Shown here: piece by piece, positions 44,094 to 62,908 of the stretch | Position numbering within the stretch: the stretch's first letter is position 1 | Layout: each line of letters opens with the position of its first letter | Assembly (NCBI GenBank): GCA_003224235.1 | Contig: QHYU01000152.1 | Coordinates: forward strand, 1 to 64,000 | From: Acidobacteriota bacterium | Lineage (GTDB): Bacteria > Acidobacteriota > Terriglobia > Acidiferrales > UBA7541 | Direction: 5' to 3' | Length of the DNA stretch: 64,000 nucleotides | The notes under the pieces: model-generated | Databases searched by the model: none | The model's input: only the letters and a program-made list of their open reading frames with translations | Told to the model about the DNA's origin: nothing | Made by a program: the position numbers and the translations under genes

Positions 44094-45146
44094 TTGGCGG
44101 AGGCCGTCAAGCTTACGGCCATGGTCAAGGCTGCGGGTTGAGCGGCGAAGCTGAGTCCCGGTCTGCTGGACTCCGTCCTGCGCCGCCTGCCGCGGCAAAC
44201 TGACCCGAACGTGCTCGTTGGGTTTGACACCAACGACGACGCCGGGGTGTATCGTCTCACGGACGACCTGGCCCTGGTGCAGACGGTGGACTTCTTCACG
44301 CCGATTGTGGACGAAGCCTACCTCTACGGGCAGATTGCCGCAGCCAATTCACTGAGCGACGTCTACGCTATGGGCGGCCGGCCCATCTCCGCACTTTCGA
44401 TCGTCGGCTTTCCGGACAAGGGCGATCCCGACGTGATGGAACAGATCATCCTGGGCGGGCTCTCCAAGATGGCGGAGGCAGGCTGCAGCGTGATTGGCGG
44501 GCATTCGATCCGCGATGACGACATCAAGTTCGGCTATGCGGTCACCGGCGTGATCAATCCGCAGCGCGTCTGGCGCAATGTTGGCGCGCAGCCGGGCGAC
44601 GTATTGCTGCTCACCAAGGCCATCGGCACCGGGGTGATTTCCACCGCGTTGAAGAAGCAGCGCGCATCGGAAGCGTCGCTCGCTGCTTCCGTGGCTTCCA
44701 TGACGCGGCTCAATCGCGATGCCGCTGAAGCGTTGCTGGAAGCGGACGGCGGCTCAGGCGCGATTCATGCTGTTACCGACATCACCGGTTTTGGCCTGCT
44801 GGGCCATGCGCGCGAGATGGCGGTTGGCAGCGGAATTTCGCTCGAGATCGATCACGCCAGGGTGGAGTACTTGCCGGGCGCAGTTGAAGCCGCGCGTGAA
44901 GGGCATCTGGCCGGCGGCCTGAAAAATAACCGCGAATTTCTAGGCGATTGCGTCGGCTTTTCTGCTTCGGTTCCCGAAGAGTTCCGCAACCTGCTCTACG
45001 ACCCGCAAACCTCGGGCGGCTTGCTGGTCGCCATCGCGCGAGAGAAGGCCGATGTCGCGATTGCTGCGCTGGCCCAACGCCGCGTCGCCACGCGCAGCAT
45101 CGGCACAGTGCTCCCCAAGCGCTCCCCCTTAATTCAGGTCATCTAG
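44094..45146 (+). CDS. selD: Selenide, water dikinase (selenophosphate synthase) containing selenocysteine, 350 aa
   Basis: It makes selenophosphate from selenide and ATP, the selenium donor for Sec-tRNA. Translation starts at TTG 44094 behind a strong GAGGAGGG site and reads MAEAVKLTAMVKAAG-U-AAKLSPG. The TGA at 44139-44141 (codon 16) falls exactly where SelD has its catalytic Cys/Sec (Cys17 in E. coli). The frame continues unbroken after it: FDTNDDAGVY, QTVDFFTPIVDEAY, NSLSDVYAMGGRP, CSVIGGHSIRDDD and YDPQTSGGLLVAI. A SECIS-type hairpin follows the TGA. A gene caller that stops at TGA would start it wrongly at about 44211. selA, selB and tRNA-Sec are not in the window. Confidence 0.95.
44153..44173 (+). 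promoter_or_regulatory. Bacterial SECIS element in selD
   Basis: Six base pairs (GAGTCC with GGACTC) close a nine-base loop, CGGTCTGCT. The loop holds GGTCT, as in the E. coli fdhF SECIS. There are 18 bases between the TGA and that GGTCT, the same spacing as in fdhF as I recall it. It should be bound by SelB to recode the UGA as Sec. Confidence 0.88.
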
Positions 45147-54253: not shown

Positions 54254-54450
54254 CTCCAAGAGGGCCTTTCTACGTGATACCGAGTCGCACAAGCCGAACG
54301 ATCCCCACCGCAGCATCCGTCTGCGCCTGCATGTGTATGTGTAGCTGTACGTGTCGCGCGACGAGCGGACGCGGAGGTCCTTCGGTTTAGCTAAGTTTTA
54401 AATCAGAAGAGATCCCGAGGCCGCTCAAGTCGAGCGGCCTTTTTTATTTT
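54254..54450 (+). ncRNA. Candidate leader RNA or small RNA ending in an intrinsic terminator
   Basis: The stretch between the promoter at 54218-54247 and the terminator is about 190 bases with no coding frame. The terminator sits just before the ATP-grasp start, the layout of an attenuator or riboswitch leader. I do not recognise a known riboswitch or RNA family in it. Confidence 0.4.
54418..54450 (+). terminator. Strong intrinsic terminator
   Basis: AGGCCGCTC pairs with GAGCGGCCT (9 bp) over a five-base loop, followed by TTTTTATTTTT. It lies only 15 bases before the ATP-grasp start codon, so it either ends an upstream RNA or attenuates the downstream pair. Confidence 0.88.
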
Positions 54451-54464
54451 TGCGGAGAAGAAAT

Positions 54465-55424
54465 ATGAAAAGCCCAACGCGCCCCATCGCCATTTACCAC
54501 GAGCACCCCGACTGGTTCCGTCCGCTGTTTGCGGAGCTAGACCACCGAGGAACCCCGTATGTACGGATCGACGCGCGTCACCATCAGTACGACGTCGCCT
54601 CGAAAGACGGCCAGTATGCGCTGTTCTTCAACCGCATGAGCCCCTCCGCCTACCTGCGGGGTAACGGGCAGGGAATCTTTTTCACGCTTCACTATCTGGC
54701 GCATCTCGAGGAACTCGGCGTCCGCGTCATCAACGGCCTCCGCGCCTTCACCATCGAAACGTCGAAGGCCTTGCAACTCTCGCTGCTGGAATCGCTCGGC
54801 CTTCCTTATCCGCGCGCCCGCGTAATCAACCACCCTTCCGAGGCCGCTGCGGCCGCCAAATGCCTCCGCTTCCCGGTGGTAGTGAAACCCAACATCGGCG
54901 GGAGCGGCGCGGGCGTCATGCGCTTTGACCGGCCCGATGAGCTGGAACAGGCGGCCGGGGAAGGCCGCCTGAACCTGGGCATCGACCACACGGCGCTGGT
55001 GCAAGAGTTCATACCGGCGCGCGGCGGTTACATCACGCGCGTGGAAGTGCTGGGATACAAGTATCTCTACGCCATACAAGTGTTTCTCTCGGGCGAAGGC
55101 TTCAACCTCTGCCCGGCGGATATTTGCCAGACTGCTGGCGGGGTAGAGCTACGGCGGGCGGCTTGCCCTGTGGATGCGCCGAAAACGGGCTTAAGAGTGG
55201 ATGGCTACACGCCACCCGCGGAAGTTATCGCAGCGGTGGAAAGGATCATGGTGGCGGCCGGAATCGAAGTGGGCGGAGTCGAGTACGTCGTGGACGATCG
55301 TGACAGCCGACTGCTCTATTACGACATCAATGCGCTTTCCAACTTCGTGGCGGACGCGCCGCGCGTCATCGGGTTCGACCCCTATGCGCGCCTAGCGGAC
55401 TACCTCGAACAGGAGGCACGCTGA
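54465..55424 (+). CDS. RimK-type ATP-grasp protein, 319 aa
   Basis: This ATP-grasp ligase has an N-terminal pre-ATP-grasp domain (PIAIYHEHPDWFRPLFAEL, YALFFNRMSPSAYLRGNG). The ATP-grasp core is FPVVVKPNIGGSGAGVMRF, ALVQEFIPARGGYITRVEV and YVVDDRDSRLLYYDINALSNF, the last a metal-binding Asp/Asn motif. Such enzymes join a carboxylate to an amine or thiol, but the substrates here are unknown. ATG 54465 has a GGAG site. It is coupled to the next gene (TGATG) and interrupts the usual trmD-rplS linkage. Confidence 0.85.
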   Translation: MKSPTRPIAIYHEHPDWFRPLFAELDHRGTPYVRIDARHHQYDVASKDGQYALFFNRMSPSAYLRGNGQGIFFTLHYLAHLEELGVRVINGLRAFTIETSKALQLSLLESLGLPYPRARVINHPSEAAAAAKCLRFPVVVKPNIGGSGAGVMRFDRPDELEQAAGEGRLNLGIDHTALVQEFIPARGGYITRVEVLGYKYLYAIQVFLSGEGFNLCPADICQTAGGVELRRAACPVDAPKTGLRVDGYTPPAEVIAAVERIMVAAGIEVGGVEYVVDDRDSRLLYYDINALSNFVADAPRVIGFDPYARLADYLEQEAR

Positions 55425-62155: not shown

Positions 62156-62908
62156 ATGGAAGCCAAACCCTCGCCAACTCGCTCGACGCGCCGATCCCCT
62201 CGCAACGTGAAGCCTTTGCTGTGGCTCGCTACCGCGGTGATTGCGGCACTAGCCCTTCTGGTCGCTGGGACGAACTTGGGCCGCTCTCTGGCGGCGATTC
62301 GGCACGCCACGCCGGTTGCGACATCGGCGACATGGGAGGGGGCGCCGCAGGCCGACACCGCGCAGAAACCTGCCTATCAGATCCTGGACGCGGATCTCGA
62401 AACGCTGCGGCAGCGCTTCAACCAAGATGCGGACCAGCCGCGCATGCTCCTGCTGCTCTCGCCCACTTGAGCGGTATGCCGCCACGGCGTGACCGTGATC
62501 CGCGATCAGGTACTGGCCAAAATTCCTGGCCCGCGCCTCCGCATCTATGCTGTCTGGCTGCCGATTCCACGAACTGACGAAGACGATAAGGTGCCCGAGG
62601 CCACCCCAATTCTGGCGGCCGAGGCGCGCGCCAGCCAGTATTGGGACCCCAGCGGTGAAAGCGGTCGGCGCTTTGCGCGCACCCTGGACCTGCCATTGAA
62701 AACGCCCGCCTGGGACGTTTACCTGCTCTATGCGCCGAAGACACGCTGGGAAGCTGCTCCACCCCCGCCTGTCTTTTGGATGCATCAACTCAGTTTCATG
62801 CCGTTCACCGAAGCCTGGCGGCGCTTCGGCAAGAAACGGCTGGACGGCGCCCGCTTCCGTGAGGAAGTTGAGAAGCTGATCGCCACCCTGCCGCCGCAGC
62901 GGAAGTAG
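62156..62908 (+). CDS. Membrane-anchored thioredoxin-like selenoprotein with a UxxC motif, 250 aa
   Basis: From ATG 62156 a basic N-terminus leads into one membrane segment (about residues 20-40, PLLWLATAVIAALALLVAG) and a soluble domain. At codon 105 (62468-62470) an in-frame TGA falls in LLLLSPT-U-AVC-RHGV. A thioredoxin-fold redox pair CxxC sits at this point in relatives, so Sec would make UxxC. The same frame then stays open for 145 more codons, with normal codon use, to TAG at 62908 (VLAKIPGPRLRIYAVWLPI, GRRFARTLDLPLKTPAWDVY, YLLYAPKTRWEAAPPPPVFW). Hairpins follow the TGA. A stop-at-TGA gene caller would split it in two. Probable role: exported thiol/disulfide or peroxide reductant; not proven. 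Confidence 0.82.
62475..62493 (+). promoter_or_regulatory. Candidate SECIS-type hairpins after the TGA of the thioredoxin-like gene
   Basis: A seven-pair stem (TATGCCG with CGGCGTG, two G-U pairs) with loop CCA is possible. A competing short hairpin puts GGC (62486-62488) in the loop, 15 bases after the TGA, closer to the bacterial SECIS rule. The call is weaker than in selD. Confidence 0.4.

Follow-up and report, generated by a model that had tools for sequence, protein, structure and literature searches.

The closest described counterparts of the protein reported here are the catalogued UxxC selenoproteins SaoT (NF040730), GOS_C (NF045500), the 'redoxin family protein' (PF08534) and the thiol:disulfide interchange protein (PF13098) (PMC13188914). 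All four resemble it in having a thioredoxin fold, selenocysteine (Sec) in the first position of UxxC, homologs with Cys and a bacterial SECIS hairpin downstream of the Sec codon. Mercury resistance proteins also proved to be relevant: MerP is a periplasmic scavenger of Hg(II) (PMC3466566), and among the MerT, MerP and MerTP proteins Sec-containing forms of MerT and MerT/CopZ are known (PF02411, NF045683).

Here we analyse an in-frame TGA in a window of 64,000 nucleotides, meaning the whole stretch of DNA studied (contig QHYU01000152.1 of an Acidobacteriota bacterium, positions 1 to 64,000), in which a membrane-anchored, thioredoxin-like selenoprotein of a little-described family had been predicted. 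We consider it likely that this gene represents a genuine family of thioredoxin-fold Sec proteins, most probably extracytoplasmic selenol-disulfide oxidoreductases that in many lineages may serve the handling of mercury or other soft metals.

Results

The gene spans positions 62156..62908 on the + strand and, with TGA read as Sec (U), encodes 250 residues including Sec105 before a TAG stop; homologs can be aligned to it before as well as after the TGA. Read-through translation placed this codon, the single TGA of the frame, at codon 105 (62468..62470, + strand) within the motif SPT-U105-A-V-C108, so that the redox motif U105-A-V-C108 covers 62468..62479 (+ strand), in agreement with the original prediction. 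The GC content of the three codon positions did not change across the TGA (0.68/0.55/0.75 before, 0.68/0.51/0.72 after), in keeping with the coding character claimed for both flanks. The window copy has thiE upstream and a zf-HC2 protein and a cytochrome c downstream. As thiE itself terminates with a TGA, 8 nt ahead of the selenoprotein start codon, TGA is an ordinary stop here. An Rfam scan of the window returned nothing. An ATP-grasp gene (54450-55424) lies about 7 kb upstream in the window and about 3 kb upstream of the related copy L002 (L130), possibly reflecting synteny at the level of the order.

The AlphaFold model, computed from a 68-row alignment, showed a thioredoxin fold with a mean pLDDT of 86.5 and values of 92-98 for most core blocks. 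Together with the alignments and Foldseek it delimits a thioredoxin-fold domain of residues 96-250 (62441..62905, + strand), which runs from the strand preceding Sec to the end of the protein. U105 lies just past strand 96-101 and at the start of helix 106-122, matching the predicted UxxC after a hydrophobic strand. The membrane anchor expected for the 250-residue protein appeared in the model as a hydrophobic N-terminal helix of residues 21-40 (62216..62275, + strand), preceded by an Arg/Lys-rich start. In Foldseek the model matched thioredoxin-fold proteins, namely GPX8 and other GPX as well as ResA/DipZ-like and SCO folds; the TM scores were modest, 0.2-0.4 when normalised to the query. Besides U/C105 and C108, the family conserves residues of its own: W134, R158, W186-D187, W198, P205 and a PPxPxFWMHQL motif. 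The invariant W186-D187 pair precedes strand 188-192, and a Pro at 184, a candidate for the cis-Pro expected ahead of the strand that faces the active site, is frequent without being conserved.

Scanning 68 members against Pfam and NCBIfam yielded no match to the core domain; the matches were confined to HMA in fused copies and isolated stray hits, and one of the 68 matched a SnoaL-like domain. The best E-value of the Redoxin model (PF08534) against family members was 0.017. The GOS_C model NF045500 (Omp28-like) did not match the locus, its best hit in the same genome being elsewhere (E 1.06), and a sequence search of the PDB gave no significant match. No counterpart was recognised among the 119 prokaryotic selenoprotein families of a 2026 review (PMC13188914), and a literature search with the SPTU motif returned unrelated papers only. 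This is therefore likely to be a novel, uncatalogued family of thioredoxin-fold selenoproteins, an outcome that goes along with its description as little-described.

Among 61 genomes related to that of the window, eight matches were found, the window copy and seven relatives of the same family, order or class with 32-42% identity. All eight carry exactly one in-frame TGA, at the aligned codon. Judged from these sequences, the in-frame TGA at 62468-62470 is far beyond chance, all seven first-found relatives having one at the same codon. When 396 genomes of the phylum were searched with a profile, 48 were positive, 37 with the TGA form and the remainder mostly open through the Sec site. A first scan of genome contigs using the whole single protein as query found no match; alignment patterns of the C-terminal half later succeeded. 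This half alone, a query free of any bias from the Cys/Sec codon, retrieved 80 named loci when one genome was scanned for each species. Their labels comprise Acidobacteriota, KSB1, Zixibacteria, Poribacteria, Planctomycetota, Eisenbacteria, Krumholzibacteriota, Gemmatimonadota, Eremiobacterota, Armatimonadota, Chloroflexi, Actinobacteria, Myxococcota, Proteobacteria, Calditrichia, Elusimicrobia and Nitrososphaerales archaeal MAGs; many of these loci come from MAGs, so single taxon assignments may be wrong. L004, a member of the window's family, proved to be on one and the same contig as L063, which bears the label Acidipila sp., and this assigns the window to the Acidobacteriota. Collections of phages and plasmids held no homolog.

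Aligned at the site, 105 distinct homolog rows comprised 75 UxxC, 26 CxxC, two CxxU, one UxxU and one WxxS, so both the Cys homologs and the further UGA homologs that had been predicted exist, and 104 of the 105 carry Sec or Cys there. TGAs elsewhere in these rows occur solely at the ends of aligned segments, and conservation downstream of the TGA equals that upstream. Termination before the site, absence of Cys or Sec from it and pseudogenisation in relatives had all been named beforehand as outcomes adverse to the prediction. None occurred among the homologs compared, and full-length frames were kept in all but one frameshifted fragment (L040). When the Sec/Cys column is left out of tree building, the distribution of the two states over the tree requires 13 changes, at least seven of which are forced by strongly supported branches.

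Some copies depart from the common architecture. In those of Olavius deltaproteobacterial symbionts (L082, L094, L101) Sec has moved or doubled, giving CxxU in two and UxxU in one. The Calditrichia copy L112 has lost both redox residues, WLIS replacing UxxC in an otherwise conserved domain, and the Zixibacteria copies L065, L069, L077, L097 and L106-L108 have a longer N-terminal extension.

Most Sec members have a hairpin such as CUUCGGGG-GGC-CUCCGAAG, located 10-28 nt after the UGA; others have a shorter one, such as GCGCC-CGUGU-GGUGC, slightly further out. Covariation was examined in 47 rows picked as users of this register, plus the window. Across 45 distinct sequences 90.6% of cells pair, a figure biased upward by this choice of rows, and double changes, which that choice alone does not create, occur in six of the eight pairs. 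More specifically, 35 cells are doubly changed against 8.8 expected, a number reached in 0 of 500 shuffles, and pairing falls to 38-67% once the partners are slid out of register. With all forms compared at the same columns, 78% of cells are paired in Sec forms and 41% in Cys forms. Generic SECIS folding at a threshold of -7.5 kcal/mol or below was a poor separator, accepting 80% of Sec and 57% of Cys forms. The fixed-register comparison and covariation thus separate the two better than generic folding does.

The window copy has a candidate SECIS hairpin, CACGG-CGUGA-CCGUG, in the register of the covarying family hairpin at 62483..62497 (+ strand), its apical loop 18 nt after the UGA. It has five base pairs and a G in the second position of the loop. 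A competing fold is the more stable of the two, and the folding energy of the hairpin itself is -5.4 kcal/mol (z -1.9). This is weaker than the limit of -7.5 kcal/mol asked by the published bacterial SECIS model, and it is the weakest part of the Sec case for the window's own gene. The earlier description of the SECIS as not obvious and loose is thus apt for the energy of this one hairpin. It does not extend to its presence at 62483-62497, nor to most Sec homologs, in which the element is strong and covaries.

The window's genome encodes SelA (533.6 bits), SelB (366 bits) and tRNA-Sec (67.8 bits), all above their cut-offs. With the SelB cut-off applied through listed E-values, SelB passed it in 35 of the 37 genomes with the TGA form vs 219 of the 359 others (p = 1.6e-5), and the two TGA genomes that fall short are fragmented drafts. 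The window also holds the anticipated Sec-containing selD. In read-through translation its catalytic motif KAAGUAAK contains the Sec codon (TGA 44139-44141), and the part from this codon to the stop covers 44139..45146 (+ strand). A strong hairpin of -23 kcal/mol lies downstream of the TGA. The program-made ORF list begins selD only after its Sec.

A link to mercury genes, absent from the earlier sequence-only reading, emerged from the neighbourhoods of the homologs. The MerT profile detected MerT near 33 of the 105 copies, mostly directly upstream and on the same strand, against about 0.5 expected by chance under a generous assumption. Among these copies are L005, L006 and L007, whose family and class are those of the window. 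A MerR-like regulator lies near 28 of the 105, and MerT or MerR near 44; neither was seen at the other 61 in the flanking DNA examined, which is often short. Six copies are directly fused to MerT: one as MerT-SeTrx (L057), two as MerT-Trx with Cys (L015, L064) and three as MerT-HMA-SeTrx (L059, L067, L092). An HMA domain is also present in L013 and L022. MerT scored above the Pfam cut-off for L044, L054 and L057. The MerR and MerA neighbours match mer models below the equivalog cut-offs, the MerA sequences being partial, so 'mer-like' is the safe wording for them. A small thioredoxin-like protein (MKIEVLYFDGCPHHL...) recurs between MerR-like and MerT genes at about 18 loci, among them L005 (-843 to -523 from the site) and L007.

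No mer gene lies near the window copy. A MerT search of its genome found none, and since the control genomes were likewise silent, absence of MerT from this genome is not proven. The same genome encodes MerA-like flavoproteins that score below the MerA cut-off. The stretch G000:C162:8280-8905 (L143) contains two adjoining fragments of such a MerA-like frame, one of them with an in-frame TGA. The closest kin of the window copy, L002 and L003 of the same order, are each followed by a DsbD_TM/CcdA-like gene, and L002 also by a glutaredoxin in its neighbourhood; in the window's genome a CcdA-like gene is found elsewhere, away from the selenoprotein.

Discussion

We regard it as almost certain that UGA-105 encodes Sec. 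A frame that stays open past the TGA could also mean that UGA is read as another amino acid, or has been reassigned in this lineage, but TGA terminates the neighbouring thiE and, it appears, several homologs, what usually replaces it at the site is Cys and not Trp, and the genome has the full Sec machinery; reassignment is highly improbable on these grounds and was rejected. Standard gene calling divides the locus into ORFs of 161 and 139 residues, as might be expected of a gene broken by a nonsense mutation or sequencing error, or of two genes, and the weak SECIS of the window would fit such an origin. Against this stand the same TGA in 75 independent rows, conservation that is equal past the TGA and the covarying hairpin, which already refute a pseudogene or error for the family and leave it a negligible probability, so that this reading too was rejected.

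For a Sec-encoding gene, SelB and tRNA-Sec would decode UGA-105 under the guidance of the hairpin directly downstream, as covariation indicates for the family and the shared register suggests for the window copy. A single N-terminal helix would anchor the product and leave the redox domain extracytoplasmic, a topology suggested by the Arg/Lys-rich start before the anchor and by fusion to MerT at its C-terminus, the end that lies outside the cytoplasm. From the fold and motif we infer an oxidoreductase, in which U105-x-x-C108 would act in selenol/thiol-disulfide exchange; a CcdA/DsbD-type protein probably recharges it, given that the two nearest relatives have such a gene downstream. Overall, extracytoplasmic selenol-thiol redox chemistry is probable.

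The proximity or fusion to mer genes suggests that members of the family may use selenium to handle mercury or other thiol-loving metals. In mer contexts the domain would most likely bind Hg(II) or another thiophilic ion, or free the ion from thiols, and then pass it to MerT; alternatively, it may keep the cysteines of MerT and MerP reduced. A direct mercury-handling role for the family is possible rather than probable. With similar reserve, we propose a selenium-dependent mercury module, in which an extracytoplasmic selenol protein coupled to MerT would capture Hg(II), or release it from thiols, and deliver it to MerT. Such a module may be common across uncultured phyla of soils and sediments and have escaped notice because gene callers truncate the gene at the UGA. 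The window copy stands alone behind thiE with no mer genes nearby, so a mercury substrate cannot be assumed for it. This position, the CcdA-like genes adjoining L002 and L003, the glutaredoxin near L002 and the best fold matches (GPX8, ResA-like, SCO) would all suit a genuine selenoprotein whose extracytoplasmic role is a general one in thiol-disulfide or peroxidase chemistry, of the TlpA/ResA or GPX kind, for which the mer linkage would be a secondary recruitment, uninformative on the window copy. MerT linkage, however, is found again and again, in clades far apart as well as in the family and class of the window (L005-L007), and direct fusions occur; we judge a purely general role to be somewhat unlikely.

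The selenoprotein family described here extends over about a dozen phyla, Sec being commoner than Cys in the set found, and in standard gene calling every Sec copy falls apart into two broken ORFs. Frequent Sec/Cys exchange provides natural comparisons of both forms, and the repeated fusion to MerT and MerT-HMA suggests a testable reason for the use of selenium in resistance to mercury.

With MerT, MerP and MerTP, including the known Sec-containing forms, the new family has shared operons and direct MerT/HMA fusions, whereas its own domain is of the thioredoxin fold, unlike the HMA fold of MerP or the membrane protein MerT; the window copy differs from the mer-fused members in having neither MerT nor an HMA domain. 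ResA/TlpA, SCO1 and GPX8 have a similar fold by Foldseek and a single N-terminal anchor, and the closest kin of the window copy share a CcdA-like neighbour with such proteins; the structural scores are, however, modest and there is no significant sequence match. Lastly, none of the models of the four catalogued UxxC selenoproteins matches the new family significantly, the comparison with the 'redoxin family protein' (HEU0032618.1) being made through the Redoxin model, and W134, R158, W186-D187, W198 and the PPxPxFWMHQL motif distinguish the new family from them.
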